Shown one piece after another: positions 14,640 through 29,364 of a stretch of DNA of 43,091 nt. Origin of the DNA: Acidobacteriota bacterium (GTDB lineage Bacteria; Acidobacteriota; Polarisedimenticolia; Gp22-AA2; AA152); NCBI GenBank assembly GCA_022616665.1, contig JAKEFJ010000195.1, positions 1-43,091 on the forward strand. The letters run 5' to 3'. Made by a program: the position numbers and the translations under genes. The notes under the pieces are model-generated. The model saw only the letters and a list, made by a program, of their open reading frames with translations. It did no database searches and had not been told where the DNA came from. The stretch's first letter is position 1; every line of letters begins with the position of its first letter.

Positions 14640-17600
14640 ATGCGACCTGGCCCTCCCGACCGCCCAGGAGCCCTCGCATCGGCTGATTTCAACCTGGACG
14701 GCAATCCCGACATCCTGCAGGCCAATTTCGAAGCAGGAGATCTGTCCTTCTTCCAGGGGGAAGTGTCGGGGAATTATGTGGAGAGGAGTCCGTCGCCTTT
14801 TCTGGCCCAGGGCGGGCCCACGTTTATTGAGGTGGCCGACCTGAACGCCGATGGGCGCCCCGACGTGGTCGCCGTGGACCGGCTGGCACGACAGCTATCC
14901 GTCCTCCTGTCCGACCCCGAAGTGACGCTCAAGCCGATGCCGAGCATTACGGTCGGGCGCGGACCCCAAGCCGTCGCTGCAGCTGACTTCAATGGTGACG
15001 GACGATTGGACCTGGCCGTAACCAGCGAACTCGATGACGTCATACTCATCTTTAACGGCAAAGGCGATGGCAATTTTACTTTTGCGCGCCTTCTAGATGC
15101 CAGAAGCGCCTCCCAAAAGAGCGCGGAAACCGTGGCGGGAGCCTTCGGAATAGTCGCAGAGGATTTTAACCGCGACGGCAAGGTCGATCTGGCGGTCACG
15201 CAGTACTGCACGGATGCGTTGGCCATTCTCCTGGGCAATGGCAACGGCACATTCCAGATTCCCACGACGCTCTCCGTGGGACGGCATCCCACCTATCTGT
15301 CCGCGGCACGACTCAGCGATGATCAACTTCCCGGCCTCACCGACGACTTTCAGGACCTGGTCGTACTCCTGACGGGTGGGGAACAAAGCGACCCGAAGGA
15401 CTGCAAAAAGCTCTCCGGAGCTTCTCTCGCCGGCGGGGTTGCCCCGCTTCTGGGAAACGGCGATGGAACTTTCACGGCGGGAGCCGTGCTGCCCGGGTCA
15501 ACCGGCGATGCGCCGCTCCAGTTGGCCGTCGGCGAGCTGCGGTTGGGAGCCTCAGGATTCGACGACTTGGTCGTCGCCAATTTTGGGAATAGCACGCTGG
15601 CCTTGCACCCTGCCTCGGGATCGGGCGGTTTCCTGCCTCCCACTTTTCTGGGAGGCAGCTCCTCGACATTGAGAAATCCCAATGCGCTAGCCCTGCTGGA
15701 TCGTGACGGGGACGGATTCATCGACCGGATCGCGGCCGCCAACTACGGTGGCGACTCCCTGACTCTTTTCGACGGAGGAGGCCCGAGTCCATTTGTCGAA
15801 GTCCCGTCCTCACCAGTGACCGCCACCCAGGATCCAGCTGGCTTGGTTAGCGGGCTGCTGGGCGGCATAACCGACGATTTGGCACTGTTTTCGACGGGAA
15901 ATGCTTCACTCCAGACCTTCATCTCCATGAATGACGGCTTCTTCTTCAAGCGGCGGCAGACTCCCCTCCCCTTCGGCTGCGGCCCGTCAGCGATGGCGCT
16001 GGGAGATTTCGATCGGGATGGCTCGCTCGACGCGGCTCTGGCGGTCACCGACGAGGATGGCGCTGCCGGAGGGTCGACGACTCCGGCGCTTTCCGTGCTC
16101 GCCGGGAGCATACTCGGGACCTTCGGAACCGTGGTCGGTGTTTGCGCCGGCGGTTCTGCTTCCGGATCCAGCTGCACTTCCGATGCCTCCTGTCCCGGAG
16201 GGATCTGCTCTTTCTCCTTGACCCTGGGTGCCTGCAACGGCGGCACCAACGCGGGCAAAGCTTGCACCGGGGACGCCGATTGCCCTTCGGCCACTTGCCT
16301 GCTTCCTGACCCGCCAACCCCCATCCAGGCCCCGGCCAGCGCTCTGCTCGCTACGGACCTGAACCAGCTGGATGCCGACCGGGACGGCGTCGCAAATTCC
16401 GCGGACAATTGCCCGTCCCGCTACAACCCCGCACAGGACAATACCCGAGGCAGGACCTGCCTTCTGGGGAGCAACAACCTTCAGCCTTGCACCCTTGACA
16501 CCGATTGCCCGGGGGGCACCTGCGCCCGCCTGGATGCCAGCGGCGATGCCTGCGACAGCACCGACTTGACTGCGGGAACCTGCCCGAGCCCCGGGGACTG
16601 CGATCAGGACGGGATTGCGGACCTGAACGACAATTGTGCGGACGTCTACAATCCGAGCCAGCTCGATGCCGACTCCAACGGAGTCGGCACCGAGTGTGAC
16701 CACGACCCCGATGTGGTGTCATCGGAGCCTTCTCTGGCGCAGCTGGAGGTCTTCATGCGACTCATGGGCGGAACCGGATTTGAGGCTCCGCAGGTCCTTA
16801 CTCTGGCAGGCCCTGCTGGCGGACTGGTCGCCGGCAGCCTCACGATCGGCGACGCGACCCAGGACTTGGCTGTCACGCTACCAGGATCGGGCAATCTGCA
16901 GATCTTGTCAGGCGACGGCGGGGGGGGATTCAGCGCGCTCGCCCCGATTGTCCTGGGAGGGGAACCGGGGGCACTGGCCAGTCTTGATGCAAACCGACAG
17001 GACCTGGATCTGGACGGTCTTCTGAACAACGCCGACAACTGCCCGACCCGCTACAATCCGACCCAGTTGGACACCGATCGGGACGGCGCCGGCGATGCCT
17101 GCAGCCTGGTGGATAATCCGGACGCGGATATCACTATCACTCTTCTTGCCAAGCGGGGGGACAATTGTCCCGACGTGTACAATTTCGCGCAGACCGACAC
17201 GGATCTGGATGGAATCGGGGATGCGTGCGACAGCAACCCTTCCATTTACAACCCGGCGGACGATCAGGATGCGGACGGAACGCCGAATTCGACCGACAAC
17301 TGCCCGACGCGGTATAACCCGTCCCAGCAAAACTTCAACACCGATGCCGTGGGGGACGCGTGCGCGCAGTCGACGGATCCCGACGGGGATCTGCACTTCA
17401 CGGCGCTTATCACCCGGGACAACTGTCCGGACGTCTATAACCTGGACCAACAGGACCTGAACCTCAATGGTATCGGGGATGCGTGCGAAGGTCTCCTGGA
17501 CCTAGCGGTCGCCGACGCTCCGGGTGGTACCCTGCAGCTCGTCATCCAATCCCCTTCCGGAATCTGGATGCCCCAGCCACAACTTCCCGTAGGAAGCCTC

Positions 17601-18068
17601 CCCACCGCCGTCAGCGCCCTGGATCTCAACGGGGACGGCATCACCGATTTGGTGGTGGCGAATACCGGAAGCTCCACGCTGAGCGTCCTACTGGGACACG
17701 GCGACGGAACTTACTTGGTGAATCCCGCATTCGATGTGCCCGTTCTCCCCGGCCCGAATACTCTGCAGCGGGGATTTTTCCGCCGCGATGCCGTCCTGAA
17801 TCTCCCTGAAGTTGCCACTCTCAGCCCTTCCCTCAATACCCCCGTCCTCGCCTTCAACATCCTCCCCGAGCGGGCGGACATCGACGTCTCAGGAAAGGTG
17901 GGGGGGAGGGACCTGGCGCTCTGGGCCAAAGGGTTCGGACTGGCCCGCAAAGATCCTGGATATGCTCAGCAGATCGACGCCGATATCAACCTGGACGGCA
18001 GGATCGACGGCCTGGATCTCGTGTTTATCACCTCTCAGTTCGGTACCGTCGTGCCGGTGCCCCCATAG
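14640..18068 (+). CDS. Large secreted protein with FG-GAP/VCBS repeats, thrombospondin type-3 repeats and a C-terminal dockerin-like domain
   Basis: 1142 residues from the only in-frame ATG. The first ~480 residues are FG-GAP/VCBS-type blades with repeated calcium motifs (ADFNLDGNPDI, ADLNADGRPDVV, ADFNGDGRLDLAV), expected to form a beta-propeller. A Cys-rich stretch follows (about 500-560, C-GG-C-D-CPGG-C pattern). Thrombospondin type-3 repeats (DNCPTRYNP, DNCPDVYN, DRDGAGDACS) fill about 575-955, interrupted by more FG-GAP units. The C-terminus (about 1080-1138) has two dockerin-type loops (DIDVSGKVGGRDL and DADINLDGRIDGLDLVF). No enzyme domain is seen. It is probably a surface or extracellular calcium-dependent protein. 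The real N-terminus is probably upstream (see 14559-14639). Confidence 0.85.
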   Translation: MRPGPPDRPGALASADFNLDGNPDILQANFEAGDLSFFQGEVSGNYVERSPSPFLAQGGPTFIEVADLNADGRPDVVAVDRLARQLSVLLSDPEVTLKPMPSITVGRGPQAVAAADFNGDGRLDLAVTSELDDVILIFNGKGDGNFTFARLLDARSASQKSAETVAGAFGIVAEDFNRDGKVDLAVTQYCTDALAILLGNGNGTFQIPTTLSVGRHPTYLSAARLSDDQLPGLTDDFQDLVVLLTGGEQSDPKDCKKLSGASLAGGVAPLLGNGDGTFTAGAVLPGSTGDAPLQLAVGELRLGASGFDDLVVANFGNSTLALHPASGSGGFLPPTFLGGSSSTLRNPNALALLDRDGDGFIDRIAAANYGGDSLTLFDGGGPSPFVEVPSSPVTATQDPAGLVSGLLGGITDDLALFSTGNASLQTFISMNDGFFFKRRQTPLPFGCGPSAMALGDFDRDGSLDAALAVTDEDGAAGGSTTPALSVLAGSILGTFGTVVGVCAGGSASGSSCTSDASCPGGICSFSLTLGACNGGTNAGKACTGDADCPSATCLLPDPPTPIQAPASALLATDLNQLDADRDGVANSADNCPSRYNPAQDNTRGRTCLLGSNNLQPCTLDTDCPGGTCARLDASGDACDSTDLTAGTCPSPGDCDQDGIADLNDNCADVYNPSQLDADSNGVGTECDHDPDVVSSEPSLAQLEVFMRLMGGTGFEAPQVLTLAGPAGGLVAGSLTIGDATQDLAVTLPGSGNLQILSGDGGGGFSALAPIVLGGEPGALASLDANRQDLDLDGLLNNADNCPTRYNPTQLDTDRDGAGDACSLVDNPDADITITLLAKRGDNCPDVYNFAQTDTDLDGIGDACDSNPSIYNPADDQDADGTPNSTDNCPTRYNPSQQNFNTDAVGDACAQSTDPDGDLHFTALITRDNCPDVYNLDQQDLNLNGIGDACEGLLDLAVADAPGGTLQLVIQSPSGIWMPQPQLPVGSLPTAVSALDLNGDGITDLVVANTGSSTLSVLLGHGDGTYLVNPAFDVPVLPGPNTLQRGFFRRDAVLNLPEVATLSPSLNTPVLAFNILPERADIDVSGKVGGRDLALWAKGFGLARKDPGYAQQIDADINLDGRIDGLDLVFITSQFGTVVPVPP

Positions 18069-21175: not shown

Positions 21176-21958
21176 CTATTTCACGATTCCGCGCTGGGAG
21201 GACCGGATGAAAGACGTCAGATAGACCACTTCCGGGACGTTTCCCATTTCCCGATCCATTTGCTCGAGGGCTCGAGTCGTGGTCAATTTGCTGTGAAACA
21301 GGAGCCGGTAGGCATTCTTGAGGGCGGTGATGGTTTCCTCGGAAAAGGACTTCCGCTTCAAGCCGACGATATTGATGCCGAAAGCCCGCGCCCGGTTGCC
21401 CACGGTGAGGACGTAGGGGAGCGTGTCCTGCGTGATTACGGAGTATCCCCCCACATAGGCGTGCGAGCCGATCCGACAGAACTGGTGGACCCCTGAGAAG
21501 GCCCCGATGACGGCGAAGTCCTCCACTTGAACATGTCCGGCCAGGGTGGCGGCATTGGCGAAGATGGTGTCGCTCCCGACCTGGCAGTCATGGGCCACGT
21601 GGGAATAGGCCATGAACAGGTTTCTATCCCCGATGGTGGTGATGCCCCCTCCCCCCGCGGTTCCGGCGTGGATGGTGCAGTTCTCGCGGAACTGATTGGA
21701 TCTCCCAATCCTCACCCGGGTTTTCTCTCCGTGATATTTGAGATCCTGGGGCTCCAGTCCCACGGCACTGAAGGGGAAAAAGCGGCAAGCCTCGCCCACT
21801 TCCGTGTCCCCCTGAAGGACCACGTGCGAGATCAGCTCGCAGCCTGCTCCCAGGCGGACCTGCTCGCCCACTAGCGAAAAAGGCCCCACACGGCACCCTT
21901 CACCGATTTGTGCGGAAGGGTGTACGAAGGAGCTCGGGTGTATTTCGGATCCGCTCAT
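21176..21958 (-). CDS. lpxA: UDP-N-acetylglucosamine acyltransferase LpxA
   Basis: LpxA transfers a 3-hydroxyacyl chain to UDP-GlcNAc, the first step of lipid A synthesis. The 260-residue protein has left-handed beta-helix hexapeptide repeats. The catalytic His lies in SHVAHDC (E. coli His125 equivalent), followed by ATLAGHVQVEDFAVIG and GVHQFC. The residue matching E. coli Gly173 is Gly (YVGGYS), which predicts acceptance of long hydroxyacyl chains. The common IHRGT is IHAGT here. The C-terminal helices (GLKRKSFSEETITALKNAYR) are present. ATG 21958 overlaps the fabZ stop by 4 bases. Confidence 0.96.
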   Translation of the reverse strand: MSGSEIHPSSFVHPSAQIGEGCRVGPFSLVGEQVRLGAGCELISHVVLQGDTEVGEACRFFPFSAVGLEPQDLKYHGEKTRVRIGRSNQFRENCTIHAGTAGGGGITTIGDRNLFMAYSHVAHDCQVGSDTIFANAATLAGHVQVEDFAVIGAFSGVHQFCRIGSHAYVGGYSVITQDTLPYVLTVGNRARAFGINIVGLKRKSFSEETITALKNAYRLLFHSKLTTTRALEQMDREMGNVPEVVYLTSFIRSSQRGIVK

Positions 21959-22395
21959 GCAGCGTCTCCCATGGACGAGAAGATCTCTGCTTCGGCCACC
22001 AGCTGTTCTCCCACGTAGGCCTCCCCCCTCATCAGGCAGGTGCGGCTGCGGAGCTTGAGAACCTCTACCTGGAGACGGACGGAATCGCCGGGGACCACCG
22101 GGCGCCGAAATTTCGCTTTGTCGATCCCGGCAAAATAGACCACCTTACCGCGGCTTTCCGGGCGGGAGTGGAGGAGCAGGACGGCTCCTGCTTGGGCCAT
22201 TGCCTCCACCACCAGCACACCGGGCATGATGGGATTTCCGGGAAAGTGGCCCTGGAAGAAGGGTTCGTTGAAGGTCACGTTTTTCAGCGCCACGATGCGC
22301 CTTCCTTCTTCCAGCTCCAGCACCCGATCCACCAGAAGAAACGGATAGCGATGGGGAATGATCTCCATGATCGCCCGGACATCCAGCGGTTCCAT
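21955..22395 (-). CDS. fabZ: 3-hydroxyacyl-ACP dehydratase FabZ
   Basis: FabZ dehydrates 3-hydroxyacyl-ACP in fatty acid synthesis and competes with LpxA and LpxD for substrate, which explains its place here. The 146-residue protein has [13 protein letters not shown] with the catalytic His (about residue 15) and [18 protein letters not shown] with the catalytic Glu. I start it at ATG 22395, whose A overlaps the lpxD stop (TGATG); longer in-frame sequence upstream is lpxD coding sequence and has no FabZ similarity. Confidence 0.96.
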
Positions 22396-23435
22396 CAGCT
22401 CTCCTTTTTGGCCGGCCCGGAAGCCAGCTGCGCCACTCGCCGCTCCAGGTCGACCACGCGCTTTCTGAGTTCCGGCAGGCGCCCCAGTCCAGCCTGGGAT
22501 TTCTTCCACTCACGATGGTCGCGGGCGGGGTGTCCGATGACGAAGGCCCCATCTGGAAGATCTCCGGTGACCGCCGACTTCGCCCCCACCTTTACCCCTG
22601 CGCCGATTTGGATGTGCCCCACCGAACCGGACTGACCCGCGAAAATGCTCCCACGCCCGACCCGGACGCTTCCCGACAGGCCGACCTGCGCCACCAGGAT
22701 GCAGCTCTCGCCGATGTCACAGTTGTGGCCCACTTGCACCAAATTGTCGATCTTCGTGCCCTTCCGAATCCGTGTGGTGCCGAAGGTGGCCCGATCCACC
22801 GTGACGTTGGCGCCGAGCTCCACGTCATCCTCCAGCGTCACATTCCCAATCTGGGGAATCTTCCAGTGCGTGCCTCCCTCCTCGGCGAAGCCGAATCCGT
22901 CGCTGCCGACGACAGTCCCGGCATGGAGGATGACGCGGTCTCCCACCACGCAGCGGTCCAGGATTCGAACTCCCGGGTGGATGAGGCAATCCTCCCCGAT
23001 TTGTACCTCCTGTCCCAGAATCACGCCCGCCAACAAGATGGTACCTCTACCGATCCGGCACGCCCGGCCGACGCTCACGAACGCGCCGATACTGACTTCC
23101 CGGCCCAGAATGCAGTCGCTCTCCACGACGCTCGTGGGGTGGATGCCCGGGTACGGCCTCGACGGTGGATGAAGCAGGGGCATGACCTTCGCCAGGGCCA
23201 CATAGGGCCGCTCCACGACCACCAAGCTCAACCGCTGGGAAGCGATGCCTGGAGACACCAGCACTCCCCCCGCTCGGGTCGACTCCAGCAGCGGCAGGTA
23301 CCTGGGAAGGGTCAGGAACGAAAGATCTTCTTCGCCCGCCTCTTCCAGGGGCTTCACGGAGCGGACCTTCCTGTCCGGGCCCGACAGGCTGCCCCCGACG
23401 TGTCGGGCGATCTCCTTCAACGTCAATTCAGGCAC
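22395..23435 (-). CDS. lpxD: UDP-3-O-(3-hydroxyacyl)glucosamine N-acyltransferase LpxD
   Basis: LpxD adds the N-linked hydroxyacyl chain in lipid A synthesis. The 346 residues comprise an N-terminal uridine-binding domain (LTLKEIARHVGGSLSG; VKPLEEAGEEDLSFL), a left-handed beta-helix of hexapeptide repeats with the catalytic His in QVGHNCDIGESC, and a C-terminal helix (VVDLERRVAQL). VGSDGFGFAEEGGTHWKIPQ matches the family's conserved substrate loop. The start is GTG at 23435 with GGAGGGGAG upstream, slightly distant. It follows skp by 23 bases and overlaps fabZ by 1. Confidence 0.95.
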   Translation of the reverse strand: MPELTLKEIARHVGGSLSGPDRKVRSVKPLEEAGEEDLSFLTLPRYLPLLESTRAGGVLVSPGIASQRLSLVVVERPYVALAKVMPLLHPPSRPYPGIHPTSVVESDCILGREVSIGAFVSVGRACRIGRGTILLAGVILGQEVQIGEDCLIHPGVRILDRCVVGDRVILHAGTVVGSDGFGFAEEGGTHWKIPQIGNVTLEDDVELGANVTVDRATFGTTRIRKGTKIDNLVQVGHNCDIGESCILVAQVGLSGSVRVGRGSIFAGQSGSVGHIQIGAGVKVGAKSAVTGDLPDGAFVIGHPARDHREWKKSQAGLGRLPELRKRVVDLERRVAQLASGPAKKES

Positions 23436-23458: not shown

Positions 23459-24064
23459 CTAGGGCTTCTTGGGCGGGTCGGGCACGGGTTTCTTGGCGTC
23501 TGCCGGGGGCTTGGTGCCTGTAGGTTTGGCGGCCGGAGCGCCCGCAGTTCCCTTGTACATCTGGTTGAATTTGGCGATGACCTCCCCGGTCACTTCCACC
23601 ACGGCATCGTTGTAGACGACGATGCTCTTTTCCAGGATGAGCATGTACTTTTTCTCTTTTCCCAACGCAGTGACTACCTCTACCAACTCCTTCTGAAACT
23701 GGTCCTGGCTGTCACCGAGCTGCGCTTTCATCTCGCGCGTGGCGTCATCGTTCAGACGCTTTAGATCGATGCTCTTCTGGTCGATGTCTTTGAGCATCTG
23801 ACTTCTTTTGTCGTCGCTGAGGCTTACTTCTTGTTCGCGAAGCTTATCTTTGAGCTTGTTGAGCTCGGTCTCTTTGGCGTTGATCTCGCCAATCTTGGAG
23901 TCCCGGAAACTCGCCAGCTGGGCCTGAATCTTCTTCCCCTCCTCGGTCTGCTGCCAGATCGCCTGGGAATCGAAGACGCCGATGCGAATCCCCTCCTGCT
24001 GGGCCAGAGCGGCTCCCGTGACGCCGGCGGCCAGAAATATGCATGCCATAACCTTTCTGAGCAT
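23459..24064 (-). CDS. skp: Periplasmic chaperone Skp/OmpH family
   Basis: Skp holds unfolded outer-membrane proteins on their way to BamA. The 201-residue protein has a signal peptide (CIFLAAGVTGAALAQ), the family start IRIGVFDSQAIWQQTEEGKK, and two long charged helices (about 45-135) forming the tentacle coiled coil. The C-terminus after ~170 is a Lys/Pro/Ala-rich tail not found in E. coli Skp. GGGAG precedes ATG 24064. It lies 45 bases after bamA, the standard order. Confidence 0.92.
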   Translation of the reverse strand: MLRKVMACIFLAAGVTGAALAQQEGIRIGVFDSQAIWQQTEEGKKIQAQLASFRDSKIGEINAKETELNKLKDKLREQEVSLSDDKRSQMLKDIDQKSIDLKRLNDDATREMKAQLGDSQDQFQKELVEVVTALGKEKKYMLILEKSIVVYNDAVVEVTGEVIAKFNQMYKGTAGAPAAKPTGTKPPADAKKPVPDPPKKP

Positions 24065-24109: not shown

Positions 24110-26878
24110 TTAGAACGTGGTGCCGATGGAAAACTGGAAGCTGCTCGCCTTTTCTCCAGGCTCGGGATCCTGAATGAAGCCGTAGATGAAGCGCAAGGGG
24201 GCCTGAAAAATCGGCAGGTAGAAACGCAGCTCGATGCCGTAGTCCACCCTCAAATCCCTCAGATCGATCTTCCGCCCGTTATCAAACGCATTGCCCATAT
24301 CCGTGAAGGCCGCGAGCTCGGCGGTTTCCCCGATGGGAAAGACATACTCGAAATTGAACTGCACGAACTTGTCGCCGCCGGGGAAGATCACTCCGAAAAT
24401 CCCATCTCCGTTGGTATCCTCGCCGGTGTCCAGGGATCCATTCCCGTTGACGTCCTCGTTGACCTCCAAAAGGCCGTCCCCATCCAAGTCCTCGGTATCC
24501 AGGATTCCATTGCCGTTGGTGTCTTCCCCGGGGTCCAGCACCCCGTTCAGGTTCAGATCCTCGGTGTCCAGAATCAGGTTGCCGTTGAGATCCTCCGAGG
24601 GATCCAGGATTCCGTCTCCGTCCCGGTCCTCCGGGCGATCGATGAATCCATTCCCGTTCAGGTCGATGTCGATCCTCGCCGGGCTGATGGTACGGCTCTT
24701 GAACGCCCGCAGCGACCTCTCCCCCCCCAGGTAGAACCGATCGTAAACCGGAACCACGCTTCCGTTGTAGGCCCGGACATAGCCGATGGCGGCATTCAAG
24801 GCAATATATTGCCTCTTGATGGACGGAAAATAAATTGTCCCGAAGGCCAAGGGGCGAACGAATGAGTTGTCCCCCCCCAGAGGTCCTCCTGCGATTTGGG
24901 TGGAGATGTTGAACCGGAACCCGCGGTTCGGCCGGAAGAAGTTGTTCCGCGAATCGTAGGTGAAGCTGGGAATGACGCTGCTGGTCAGGGTTTCGGCGGT
25001 GGAGAGGGCTCCCTGCTGTGCCTTGGCAAACTCATAGATGTAGGTGAAGTCCATCCGGCTGAAGGTTCCCAGAAGGCGCCCTACCTGCGCGCTCCCTCCA
25101 TGTCCCTCCTGAACGGCATTGCGGAAATCGCTGGTACGCTGGAACAGGCTGAACCCCAGCGTCCAGGGGTGGCCCAGAAACCAGGGCTCGATGAAGGAAA
25201 GGCTGTACCGGGACTGGCGTCCACCCAGCTGGAAGCTCGCCTGGACAATCTCGCCCCTTCCAAGGAAATTCCGAGTGGCGTAGGATCCCGAGAGGAAAGC
25301 GCCGTTCAGGCCGCTGACTCCTCCTCCGATCTGGATTTCATTGCGATTGGCCTCTTTACCCTCGATCACGATATCTACTTTGTTCTCGCCCGTTCGCGGC
25401 CGGATCGCGGCATCTTCCGTGATCTGCCAATAGCCCAGCTGGTTGATTTTCCTCAACCCAACCCGAAACCGCTTCAGGTCGAACAGATCCTCTTCCGCCA
25501 CCGGAATTTCTCGCCGCAGGACCTTGTCCCGGGTTGACGTGTTCCCTTGGAATTCCATGGTGTTAATCCGGTACTGCTTGTCCTCGTTGATCTCGATCTT
25601 GAGATCCGCCACCTGATCGCCCTGACGCTCCACGACCTGGTTGGCGGTCACGTAGAAATACCCCTTCTCGCCGTAGTCCAGCTGGATGCGCCCCAGCCCG
25701 AGTTTCACCGCACCGTCGTTGAAGATCCCTCCGGCGACCACGGGAACCCGCGCGAGAATCTCCTCCCGGGTAAAGACCTTGTTGCCTTCCACGTCGATGG
25801 TCCCGATCTTGTACTGGGTCCCCTCGTGGATGGGAACGGTGACGTAAATCCACTTCTTGGGGGTTTTTGGTTCCTCCTCCTTGGTGTCATCTTCCGGAGG
25901 GGAGGTGGTCCCGACGGGCAGGAGCTGGCCCTTCTCAGCAGCCTTGGCAGCCTTCTTTGCCTGCTTTTCCGCTTCCTTTGCCTGTTTCTCCGCCTGCTTC
26001 TGCGCCTGCCGAGCCGCTTCCTCCTCCTGTTGCTGCTGCTTCTTCTTCGCCTCGGCCTGCTGCTTCTCCGCCTCTTTGGGAGAGGTCGGAGGTGGCTGAT
26101 CGGGAAGCAGCTCCACCACTTCGGGCTTCACGTCAACGTCCAGGTAGCCCAGATCCATGTAGGCTTGGCGGATGACCCTGGCATCCTCGTCAAATTTCCC
26201 CGGATGGTACAGATCCTTGGAGTTGGCCCAGGTGAGCATTCCCTTCTCTTTTGTGAGCTTCATCACCTTTTTCAGCTGCCGATCTGAGAAGACCGTATTC
26301 CCCGTGAAGTCGATCTCCTTGATCTTGGTCTTCCCGCCCTGATGGGCTGTGAAGGTGAGATTCTGCTGCCCGGGCGCCACTTCCTTCATTTCGATCTCGA
26401 CCTGGGCATCCAAGTAGCCCTTCTGCCCGAGCATCTGCTTCAGGATCTCCTGTGCCTTGCGAATCTTGCTGTAGTCGACCGGTGACCCGCGATGAATGTC
26501 GGCCTTCTGTTCGGAAAGCTTTTCGTCGATCTGGGTCGTCGTGAACGCCTTGATGCCCTTGTACTCCACGTCGGCGACGAGAGGACGATCTTGGACGTGC
26601 CAGAGAACGATTTTGCCTCTCTCCCCCTGGCGCACTTCCAGGGTGATGTTGTCGAAGAGGTTCAGGTCCCAGAGCCTTTGGAATTCACGCACCAGGACGT
26701 TCTCGTCGTACAGATCTCCCTCTTTGACGGTGAGTTGGCTCACGAGGGCCGACGCTGAGATGCGGACGCTGCCGTCCACGACGATGCGCTCGATGGTCTC
26801 CGACTGCCCCATGGCGAGGCTAGGCACGAGGGCGAACCCGAGCGTCGCCATGACCATCCACAAGCCACGCGTCAGCAT
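24110..26878 (-). CDS. bamA: Outer membrane protein assembly factor BamA with two large insertions
   Basis: BamA is the core of the outer-membrane protein insertion machine. From ATG 26878 it has 922 residues against about 800 usual. A signal peptide (MVMATLGFALVPSLAMGQS) precedes five POTRA domains (about 25-490) and a 16-strand barrel. POTRA3 is interrupted by an 83-residue Lys/Gln/Glu/Ala-rich insert (25853-26101). Loop 6 carries the conserved (V/L)RxF motif as SLRAF, followed by eight EF-hand-like loops (24392-24664), before the barrel resumes with VQFNFEYVFPIG. I choose ATG 26878 because AAGGA lies nine bases upstream and the signal peptide starts there; GTG 26941, overlapping clpC, is in frame but adds 21 unlikely residues. 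Confidence 0.95.
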   Translation of the reverse strand: MLTRGLWMVMATLGFALVPSLAMGQSETIERIVVDGSVRISASALVSQLTVKEGDLYDENVLVREFQRLWDLNLFDNITLEVRQGERGKIVLWHVQDRPLVADVEYKGIKAFTTTQIDEKLSEQKADIHRGSPVDYSKIRKAQEILKQMLGQKGYLDAQVEIEMKEVAPGQQNLTFTAHQGGKTKIKEIDFTGNTVFSDRQLKKVMKLTKEKGMLTWANSKDLYHPGKFDEDARVIRQAYMDLGYLDVDVKPEVVELLPDQPPPTSPKEAEKQQAEAKKKQQQQEEEAARQAQKQAEKQAKEAEKQAKKAAKAAEKGQLLPVGTTSPPEDDTKEEEPKTPKKWIYVTVPIHEGTQYKIGTIDVEGNKVFTREEILARVPVVAGGIFNDGAVKLGLGRIQLDYGEKGYFYVTANQVVERQGDQVADLKIEINEDKQYRINTMEFQGNTSTRDKVLRREIPVAEEDLFDLKRFRVGLRKINQLGYWQITEDAAIRPRTGENKVDIVIEGKEANRNEIQIGGGVSGLNGAFLSGSYATRNFLGRGEIVQASFQLGGRQSRYSLSFIEPWFLGHPWTLGFSLFQRTSDFRNAVQEGHGGSAQVGRLLGTFSRMDFTYIYEFAKAQQGALSTAETLTSSVIPSFTYDSRNNFFRPNRGFRFNISTQIAGGPLGGDNSFVRPLAFGTIYFPSIKRQYIALNAAIGYVRAYNGSVVPVYDRFYLGGERSLRAFKSRTISPARIDIDLNGNGFIDRPEDRDGDGILDPSEDLNGNLILDTEDLNLNGVLDPGEDTNGNGILDTEDLDGDGLLEVNEDVNGNGSLDTGEDTNGDGIFGVIFPGGDKFVQFNFEYVFPIGETAELAAFTDMGNAFDNGRKIDLRDLRVDYGIELRFYLPIFQAPLRFIYGFIQDPEPGEKASSFQFSIGTTF
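24392..24664 (-). repeat. Eight tandem EF-hand-like calcium loops within BamA loop 6
   Basis: About residues 739-829 of BamA read as back-to-back 11-12 residue units: DLNGNGFIDRPE, DRDGDGILDPSE, DLNGNLILDTE, DLNLNGVLDPGE, DTNGNGILDTE, DLDGDGLLEVNE, DVNGNGSLDTGE, DTNGDGIFG. Acidic or Asn residues at positions 1, 3 and 5 and Glu at 12 match the EF-hand loop. There are no flanking E or F helices. The coding DNA is correspondingly repetitive but diverged. Calcium binding is inferred from the motif. Confidence 0.9.
25853..26101 (-). other. 83-residue charged helix/linker insert in POTRA3 of BamA
   Basis: Between the second and third strands of POTRA3 (after DVKPEVVELLP, before WIYVTVPIHEG) lies a stretch dominated by Lys, Gln, Glu and Ala (for example KKKQQQQEEEAARQAQKQ), probably one long helix, followed by a Pro/Asp/Glu-rich linker. 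POTRA3 resumes intact afterwards. Such an arm would project into the periplasm. It falls in coding sequence without a frame break. Confidence 0.8.
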
Positions 26879-26937
26879 GCCTGGCAATCCTTGCGAGTCC
26901 TCGCGGGGCCTGGATGGTGGATGGGTTCCCGCCAGCC

Positions 26938-29364
26938 TCACGGAAGCGTGTTGATTTCCATGGCCTCCCGGAAGGCCAGGCGCTCCTGGTCCAGGAAGAT
27001 CTCGATCTCCCCCTGGCGCGGCAGCGTGCCGAGGATCAGGCTCTCGGACAGGGCGTCCTCGATGTGCTTCTGAATGGCGCGCCGCAGAGGTCGGGCTCCG
27101 TAGGATCGATCCGCGCAGGTGGTCTCGATTAGCCAGCGGTAAACATTGTCCTTCAGCGTGAGCGAGATTCCCCTGTGGACCAGGCCTTCGTTGAGCTGGC
27201 GAATCATGAGCTTCGCGATTGCGAGCAGATCTTCGTCGGAAAGGACATCGAAGACGATGATTTCATCGATGCGGTTCAGGAACTCGGGGCTGAGGGATTG
27301 CTTGACCTCCCGCATGACCAGTTCCCGGCGGTTGCGGTACTCCTCCTGGGGCTCGGCCCCGGAGAAGCCCAGCTTGGGCCCCTTCTGGATCAAGGACGAG
27401 CCGATATTGGACGTCATGATCAGCAGGCAGTTCTTGAAATCGATGGTGTCACCATAGGCGTCGGTGATCTGCCCGTCCTCGAACACCTGCAGGAGAATAT
27501 TCAGCACATCCGGGTGGGCTTTTTCGATCTCATCCAGCAGGACCACCGAGTAGGGCTTGCGCTTCACCCGCTCGGTGAGCAGGCCGCCTTCCTCGTATCC
27601 GACGTATCCGGGGGGCGAGCCAATCATCTTGGCCACGGCGTGCTTCTCCATGTACTCGGACATGTCGAACCGAATCATGGACCGCTCGTTGCCGAAGAGA
27701 AACTCTGCCAGGGTGCGCGCGACTTCGGTCTTGCCCACTCCGGTCGGGCCAAGATACATGAAAGATCCCACCGGCCTCAAGGGGCTCTTCAATCCCGCCC
27801 GGGATCGGCGGATCGCCCGGGAGAGGGCGGAGATGGCCTCATTCTGGCCCACAATCCTCCGATGCAGGTACTCCTCCATTTTCAGGAGTTTTTCCAATTC
27901 CTCCTTGCGGACCGAGGCGAGGGGAATCCCGGTCCACTTGGAGATGACCTCCTCAACGTCGTCCCGGGTCACTTCCAGTACCGTGTCCGTGGTCTCCTGC
28001 TCCCGTCGCCTGCACTCTTCATACTTTCGACGCAGGGCAAGTTCTTCGTCGTGGTGCTTCACGGCATTCTCGAAGTCTTTCCGGAAGAGGAAAGTCTTCA
28101 TGTGGGAGACCGCTCGCTCGATTTCCTGCTCCATCTCCCTGAGCTGCTTGTAGGAAGCGCTGCGATAGAGCTTCACTCGAGCGCCGGCTTCGTCGATGAC
28201 GTCGATAGCCTTGTCGGGGAGGAAGCGGTCGCTGATGTAGCGGCTGGACTGGTAGACCGCCTGAACCAGGGCCTCTTCCGTATAGCGAACATGGTGAAAC
28301 TTCTCGTAGCGGTCCTTAACGCCGAAGAGGATCCGCACCGTCTCCTCTTCGCTGGGAGGGGAGACCTTGATGGACTGAAATCGCCTCACCAGGGACCGAT
28401 CTCTCTCGATGTGGCGATGGTATTCCTTGGGGGTCGTGGCCCCGATGCACTGGACTTCCCCTCGGGACAGGGCGGGTTTGATGATGCTGGCCGCGTCCAG
28501 TGAGCCTTCCGCCGATCCCGCTCCGATGAGGCAGTGGATTTCATCGATGAAAATGATGATGCTCTCGTTTCCCAGGAGCTCGGAGAGGATCCCTTTGAGC
28601 CGCTCCTCAAACTGCCCCCGGTACTTGGTTCCGGCCACGATGAGCGAGAGGTCCAAGGCAAGAATTCGCTTGCCGGCCAGGGAGCTGGGAACTTCGCCTT
28701 GGGCTATCCGGGTGGCCAGCCCCTCCACGATGGCCGTCTTGCCAACGCCGGGATCGCCCAGGAGCACGATGTTGTTCTTCCGCCTCCGGGAGAGAATCTG
28801 GATCATCCGCTGGATTTCTGCGTCCCGACCGATGAGGGGGTCGAACAGCTGGCGGGAAGCCAATTCGCTCAGATCCCGCGAAAACTCGTTGAGGAAGGGG
28901 GTTTCCTTGACCTTCTTGGGTAGGGAGCGTTCCTTCCACACCGTCACCGTGTCTTCCCGCACGGCGTAGAGCCTCATCCCCTTCTCCTGTAGGGCGCGGC
29001 CTGCGGCAGAGTCCTCAACCCGCAGAAGGCCCAAGAGCAGATGCTCGTTCCCCACGTAGGGGTGGAGCAGTCTCTCGGCCTCCTCTTCGGCATGTGCCAG
29101 GATTCTCTTGGTCTCCTCGCTGAAGGGAATTTCCAGGGTCGTGGAAATCTTCTCGCCGGAGGGGCCACGGGCTTCCAGCTCCGCCTGCAGCAGCTCCACA
29201 TTGACATTGGAGCGACGGAAGATTTCCCGCGTGACCTCGTCACCTTCTTTCAAGAGCCCCAGGAGGAGATGCTCGGAAGCAATGACCTTGCTTCCCATCT
29301 GGCTCGCTTCGTAGCGGGCGAGGAACAGGATTTTTTTGGCGCGTTCCGTGTACTTTTCGAACAT
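26938..29364 (-). CDS. clpC: ATP-dependent Clp protease ATP-binding subunit ClpC
   Basis: ClpC is a AAA+ unfoldase that feeds proteins to ClpP. Residues 1-~145 form the double Clp N domain (FTERA-type start, LLLGLLKEGD and LLLGLLRVED). AAA domain 1 has Walker A GDPGVGKT (203-210) and Walker B IIFIDEIH. A short middle domain coiled coil follows (about 410-470), then AAA domain 2 with GPTGVGKT and VVLLDEIEKAHPDV. The LGF tripeptide (KLGFSGAEP) matches the ClpP-docking loop. Its place between lolD and bamA is unusual. ATG 29364; it ends 59 bases before the bamA ATG. Confidence 0.94.
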   Translation of the reverse strand: MFEKYTERAKKILFLARYEASQMGSKVIASEHLLLGLLKEGDEVTREIFRRSNVNVELLQAELEARGPSGEKISTTLEIPFSEETKRILAHAEEEAERLLHPYVGNEHLLLGLLRVEDSAAGRALQEKGMRLYAVREDTVTVWKERSLPKKVKETPFLNEFSRDLSELASRQLFDPLIGRDAEIQRMIQILSRRRKNNIVLLGDPGVGKTAIVEGLATRIAQGEVPSSLAGKRILALDLSLIVAGTKYRGQFEERLKGILSELLGNESIIIFIDEIHCLIGAGSAEGSLDAASIIKPALSRGEVQCIGATTPKEYHRHIERDRSLVRRFQSIKVSPPSEEETVRILFGVKDRYEKFHHVRYTEEALVQAVYQSSRYISDRFLPDKAIDVIDEAGARVKLYRSASYKQLREMEQEIERAVSHMKTFLFRKDFENAVKHHDEELALRRKYEECRRREQETTDTVLEVTRDDVEEVISKWTGIPLASVRKEELEKLLKMEEYLHRRIVGQNEAISALSRAIRRSRAGLKSPLRPVGSFMYLGPTGVGKTEVARTLAEFLFGNERSMIRFDMSEYMEKHAVAKMIGSPPGYVGYEEGGLLTERVKRKPYSVVLLDEIEKAHPDVLNILLQVFEDGQITDAYGDTIDFKNCLLIMTSNIGSSLIQKGPKLGFSGAEPQEEYRNRRELVMREVKQSLSPEFLNRIDEIIVFDVLSDEDLLAIAKLMIRQLNEGLVHRGISLTLKDNVYRWLIETTCADRSYGARPLRRAIQKHIEDALSESLILGTLPRQGEIEIFLDQERLAFREAMEINTLP

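Follow-up and report, generated by a model that had tools for sequence, protein, structure and literature searches.

The canonical BamA proteins of E. coli and Neisseria have five POTRA domains, a 16-strand barrel and a loop-6 motif of the form GG..SLR.F, and their gene lies in the order bamA-skp-lpxD-fabZ-lpxA. Calcium has been placed outside the BAM machine in Flavobacterium johnsoniae, where BamM, a lipoprotein of the BAM canopy, binds seven ions, assigned as calcium, that structure it (PMC12611786). In the BamA of this organism, loops are extended, loop 6 gaining only 16 residues, and a substitution in loop 6 (Gln801) suppresses the loss of BamH (PMC12611786). This canopy is the nearest precedent for the array described here. 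As for calcium-binding repeats, EF-type Dx[DN]xDG loops have ligands at positions 1, 3, 5, 9 and 12, a Gly at position 6 and a hydrophobic residue at position 8 (PMC3123361). RTX repeats are extracellular and tandem, and consist of nonapeptides (GGxGxDxUx) that form a beta-roll. Thrombospondin type 3 repeats are tandem calcium loops with no regular secondary structure between them. In the open-access literature searched, no paper came up that describes calcium loops in LptD or in loop 6 of BamA.

We analyzed a window of 43,091 nucleotides, for which a BamA with repeated EF-hand-type calcium loops in its extracellular loop 6 had been predicted. The identity of the gene was borne out on several grounds. 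The protein scores 463 bits against the NCBIfam equivalog TIGR03303 (OM_YaeT), for a cut-off of 297, Pfam finds five POTRA domains and an Omp85 domain, and in a Foldseek search of the PDB the fold of the BamA model is matched best by structures of E. coli BamA. The neighbourhood, in the order lol-clp-bamA-skp-lpxD-fabZ-lpxA, agrees: on one flank lie a Skp-like gene, then lpxD, fabZ and lpxA, and on the other a Clp ATPase, lolD and lolC/E. No NCBIfam match was found for the Skp/OmpH-like ORF. Family and neighbourhood together suggest a role of this BamA in outer-membrane protein assembly. Its ORF spans 24110-26941 (-), and the alternative upstream GTG at 26941 would give a protein of 943 aa (coordinates of the features are collected in Table 1). 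Domains, motif and gene order are thus those of the canonical BamA, which however has no counterpart of the ~91-residue calcium-type insert found here after the loop-6 motif. Near this outer-membrane gene cluster, the window also encodes (14640-18068, (+)) a secreted-type protein of 1142 aa. It contains FG-GAP, thrombospondin type 3 and dockerin-like repeats, which are of another calcium-repeat type than the array.

Table 1. Features of the bamA locus and of the loop-6 array, in positions of the window.
Feature	Position	Strand	Basis or remark
bamA coding sequence	24110..26878	(-)	922 aa from likely ATG at 26878
Predicted barrel strand 11, preceding loop 6	24779..24808	(-)	AlphaFold2 model
GGERSLRAF loop-6 motif, residues 718-726	24701..24727	(-)	alignment; counterpart of GG..SVRGF
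EF-loop-type array, residues 739-829	24392..24664	(-)	seven complete units and a truncated eighth
Unit 1, DLNGNGFIDRPE	24629..24664	(-)	ligand-pattern match
Unit 2, DRDGDGILDPSE	24593..24628	(-)	ligand-pattern match
Unit 3, DLNGNLILDTE	24560..24592	(-)	ligand-pattern match; 11 residues, the next D serving as position 12
Unit 4, DLNLNGVLDPGE	24524..24559	(-)	ligand-pattern match
Unit 5, DTNGNGILDTE	24491..24523	(-)	ligand-pattern match; 11 residues
Unit 6, DLDGDGLLEVNE	24455..24490	(-)	ligand-pattern match
Unit 7, DVNGNGSLDTGE	24419..24454	(-)	ligand-pattern match
Truncated unit 8, DTNGDGIFG	24392..24418	(-)	ligand-pattern match
Predicted barrel strand 12, following loop 6	24332..24370	(-)	AlphaFold2 model, block pLDDT 92-93
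Skp/OmpH-like chaperone gene	23459..24064	(-)	called from position and sequence character only
lpxD-fabZ-lpxA	21176..23435	(-)	NCBIfam

The original prediction counted eight EF-hand-type units following the SLRAF motif, after which a normal barrel would resume. Its coordinates and its description of the units stand, but the eighth unit is incomplete, which leaves seven complete ones. The place relative to the motif was found as predicted: after the array, the barrel resumes with GGDKFVQFNFEY, followed by the last strands. In the motif itself, here in the variant SLRAF, the Arg is invariant across 44 aligned BamAs. The units, of 11 or 12 residues, are arranged head to tail and follow, with small departures, the form D-x-[DN]-x-[DN]-G-x-[hydrophobic]-[DE]-x-x-E. 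The 12-position ligand pattern occurs 7 times in this BamA, versus a mean of 0.26 in composition-preserving shuffles, none of which, out of 20,000, reached 7. The array is acidic, with 27 D+E versus 2 K+R per 90 residues.

At the DNA level, array units share 50-72% identity, TRF detected no tandem repeat in the array, and the GC content of the array is close to that of the remaining bamA gene (0.59 vs 0.586), GC3 being likewise similar. This combination points to an old, selected array rather than to a fresh microsatellite or an obvious import. The negative TRF result and the divergence of the units led us to rule out a fresh tandem duplication as the origin of the array, and the match in GC and GC3 to reject its horizontal import.

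The place of the array in the barrel was examined in an AlphaFold2 model of POTRA5 and the barrel, computed without metal from an alignment of 44 BamA sequences (mean pLDDT 79). The model has 16 barrel strands, and the array follows strand 11 (model residues 258-267) and precedes strand 12 (404-416). Its position is therefore that of loop 6, as had been proposed. Within the array, block pLDDT drops to 38-67 and no helix of at least 4 residues is formed. A fold that depends on metal, when modelled in its absence, would be expected to give such low values, but equally so would a disordered loop.

How do these units compare with known calcium-binding repeats? The pattern that defines an EF-hand loop (12 residues, ligands at 1, 3, 5, 9 and 12) is present in seven array units, and they share with EF-type loops the Gly at 6 and the hydrophobic residue at 8. 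They differ from them in that they abut, measure 11-12 residues, have no flanking helices and often have Asn at position 5. An EF-hand domain proper was rejected, as there is no room for helices between units, Pfam EF-hand models remain below their cut-offs, and the array has no helix of at least 4 residues in the model. The closest sequence with a solved structure is the loop DTNGNGYLDAEE of the engineered protein Z-Ca (6fgo), which is nearly unit 5, in a weak match (E 0.12); for its crystal structure, 6FGO, a complex with Ca2+ is reported (PMC12685030). Thrombospondin type 3 repeats resemble the array by the similar length of their tandem loops and the lack of regular secondary structure between them, and by the paired cysteines seen in some relatives (family f2, below), whereas the array of the window has no cysteine. 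Assignment to this family (PF02412) was discarded: the array gave no match at E<=1, though a neighbouring protein of the window does match. With RTX repeats, the array shares its tandem and extracellular character, but its period of 11-12, which led us to reject RTX membership, its EF-type ligands and its DxNxNG units set it apart from the nonapeptides. Finally, the Flavobacterium canopy has calcium-structured material outside BAM, and so, putatively, does this BamA; in Flavobacterium the calcium sits in a separate subunit, BamM, and in the present case loop 6 of BamA itself contains the loops.

The distribution of the array was then followed in the class, which holds 41 genomes; the order, one of uncultured Acidobacteriota, is represented by 12 genomes from two families (f1 and f2). 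A BamA was found in 11 of the 12, and all 11 have the array, in both families, although in one of them (G011) it was seen as match pieces only. The repeats are thus conserved in the BamA homologues of relatives. In family f1, the same seven units and truncated eighth recur in BamA with no gaps, so that unit number is fixed, and in family f2 the inserts are longer (159-163 residues vs 109 over the compared stretch). Four cysteines flank the calcium-type loops in the f2 BamAs (L032-L037), suggesting disulphide staples. Another region, an insertion rich in Lys, Ala, Glu and Gln in the POTRA part (BamA residues ~260-338, window 25863-26100 (-)), is variable among four f1 relatives. In BamAs from other families of the class, loop 6 is short and holds no more than one loop of this type. 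In families f8 and f9 (L055, L056, L057), a single DRNGDGILDRND-like loop is present just before GGDRY, and it may represent either a simpler state or a parallel gain.

In a tree built without loop 6, array-bearing BamAs form one clade (100/100), and single-loop BamAs also group. The distribution is most simply explained by one gain of the array in the ancestor of the order. Searching the array region against two samples of 396 genomes of the phylum Acidobacteriota gave no BamA match outside the order. The weak matches obtained there are, by sequence, seemingly unrelated proteins (carboxypeptidase-like and TSP3-like ones among them), and neither BamA nor LptD. The nearest named record, 'Acidobacteria bacterium isolate AA152' (QHVQ01000015.1, 78%), is a MAG and carries the array.

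We asked what selection has acted on the units by comparing four family f1 BamAs, for which synonymous sites are mostly saturated (dS mostly >1). EF-type ligand positions 1, 3, 5, 9 and 12 are invariant in 34/35 columns, and the sole change, between D and E, keeps the carboxylate. For non-ligand positions 2, 4, 7, 10 and 11, invariance falls to 10/35 columns (Fisher p ~1e-9, to be taken as indicative only, since columns of the 11-residue units overlap the next unit slightly and the sequences are related). The dN/dS of the array is ~0.06-0.20, and that of the barrel is similar. Invariance of the ligands despite saturated synonymous sites argues that selection maintains the loops as metal loops. 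Such a pattern would be expected under selection for metal coordination, and low-complexity drift could hardly account for it.

Loops of this kind are also present in other proteins, a pattern that the original prediction had missed. In the genome of the window itself, the array has its second match in LptD (Pfam LptD), which has about five calcium-type loops (L003 445-3273 (-), same gene as L152; G000:C136:31967-34792). LptD carries them in all 11 order genomes read, between about one and eight loops at one shared site, before 'FVRKSLQGSVEVIGP'. An AlphaFold2 model of LptD puts the insert between two barrel strands, and profile alignment to the Klebsiella LptD 5iv9 maps it between LLATHYQQS and ESVSRVMPQ. 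It would correspond to an extracellular loop between strands 13 and 14, counting from the conserved SDFDY loop. In one genome (G001), LptD (L154) contains an internal duplication of the calcium-loop module, the two modules being 85% identical in DNA, which indicates that unit number is still changing in LptD, unlike in BamA. A recent gene conversion between LptD and BamA found no support, as the two-unit modules of LptD are no closer to the BamA of their own genome than to those of others.

Further array matches in genome G003 are six Oar-type TonB-dependent receptors and one subtilase, the receptors having the Pfam domains CarboxypepD_reg, Plug and OMP_b-brl_4 (five of six scanned). Receptors of G008 carry 4-6 units, and no receptor with three or more units was found at the loci fetched from four sister-family genomes, both results being obtained with crude script filters. 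Oar-type receptors of the order with 4-6 loops (L142, L143, L145, L147, L149, L177-L185) often have a cysteine pair, GCEG..EDLNCNG; in sister families such loops are few or absent. In the TamA-like BamA paralogue of the order, loop 6 is short and normal, and no units were found. Judging from their sequences, calcium-type loops are common to several, but not all, outer-membrane proteins of the order.

The explanation that we favour, and hold to be probably correct, is that these are calcium-structured loops with a general surface role, to which the array in loop 6 of BamA belongs. As to the identity of the metal, the fold of the array and its function, we infer the following. Loop 6 would have gained a chain of seven tandem calcium-binding loops and a truncated eighth, with EF-hand ligand geometry and no flanking helices, and in each unit side chains at positions 1, 3, 5, 9 and 12 would coordinate the metal. 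Extracellular Ca2+, or a similar cation, would fill the sites and offset ~25 net negative charges. Lying beside the LPS surface, the array would be expanded without cations, and with calcium in every loop the acidic loop would collapse into a compact and rigid structure, a cap or a rod, that covers the barrel mouth. Once stiffened by calcium, the cap may stabilise or shield the barrel mouth, and the use would be the same in BamA, LptD and the receptors. Calcium-stapled extracellular loops would then be a general device of the order, possibly linking outer-membrane proteins to each other or to lipopolysaccharide, and any effect on the gating of BamA would be secondary. A more far-reaching proposal, that the order has rebuilt BamA and LptD with calcium-folded extracellular domains and that its outer-membrane biogenesis senses or requires external calcium, seems to us rather unlikely.

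The original prediction had gone in another direction, namely that of a possible calcium gate in which occupancy of the array would shift loop 6 inside the barrel, so that assembly by BamA could depend on external calcium. Loop 6 is indeed the functionally sensitive loop of BamA, as the Gln801 suppressor of Flavobacterium illustrates, and the unit number, fixed in f1 BamA and variable in LptD, hints at a tighter constraint on BamA. However, the same loop type exists in LptD and in receptors, which have no gate of the BamA type, the SLRAF motif itself looks normal, and the sites would probably stay filled at ordinary levels of external calcium. The loops of LptD and of the Oar-type receptors thus lead us to favour a general calcium-stiffened surface over a gate specific to BamA, and we regard the latter as unlikely. 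The array might instead act as a folding ratchet: unfolded during export and barrel assembly, the acidic loop would fold once exposed, drawing long loops to the surface. This would fit with a loop type common to three barrel families, each of them assembled by BAM, and has a precedent in RTX repeats, for which calcium folding of the ratchet type has been proposed. But calcium in the periplasm should be in equilibrium with that outside, so that there is perhaps no calcium gradient to exploit across the outer membrane, and TamA manages without such loops; we consider this possibility quite improbable.

Some of the data would also suit a disordered acidic decoy or shield, directed against phage, antibodies or bacteriocins and devoid of specific metal sites, its motif being the product of low-complexity drift. 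Low predicted confidence, high acidity and surface position of the array all go in this direction, but the invariance of the ligand positions (34/35 vs 10/35 columns) despite saturated synonymous sites does not, nor do the fixed unit number in f1 BamA and the paired cysteines of the longer f2 arrays, and little likelihood is left to it. As for an artefact of assembly or binning, or a wrong gene call, the genome of the window is a fragmented draft of 274 contigs, but the array recurs in 11 genomes of the order and in record QHVQ01000015.1, its open frame is unbroken, and its dN/dS is well below 1, so that an artefact is extremely improbable and was rejected. These alternatives partly overlap with the main explanation, and the likelihoods expressed here do not sum to one.

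The array is a real and conserved variant of BamA, and part of a pattern found across the order. BamA and LptD are essential and are targets of antibiotics, and their extracellular loops are usually seen as lids or as variable surfaces. In this one lineage, the same kind of calcium-type loop is found in BamA, LptD and nutrient receptors. The array parallels, within one protein, the calcium-structured canopy that covers the BAM of Bacteroidota. Confirmation of calcium-structured loops would show that assembly machines can have their surface loops rebuilt around a metal, and calcium would offer a direct way to test the locking and unlocking of loop 6 from the outside.
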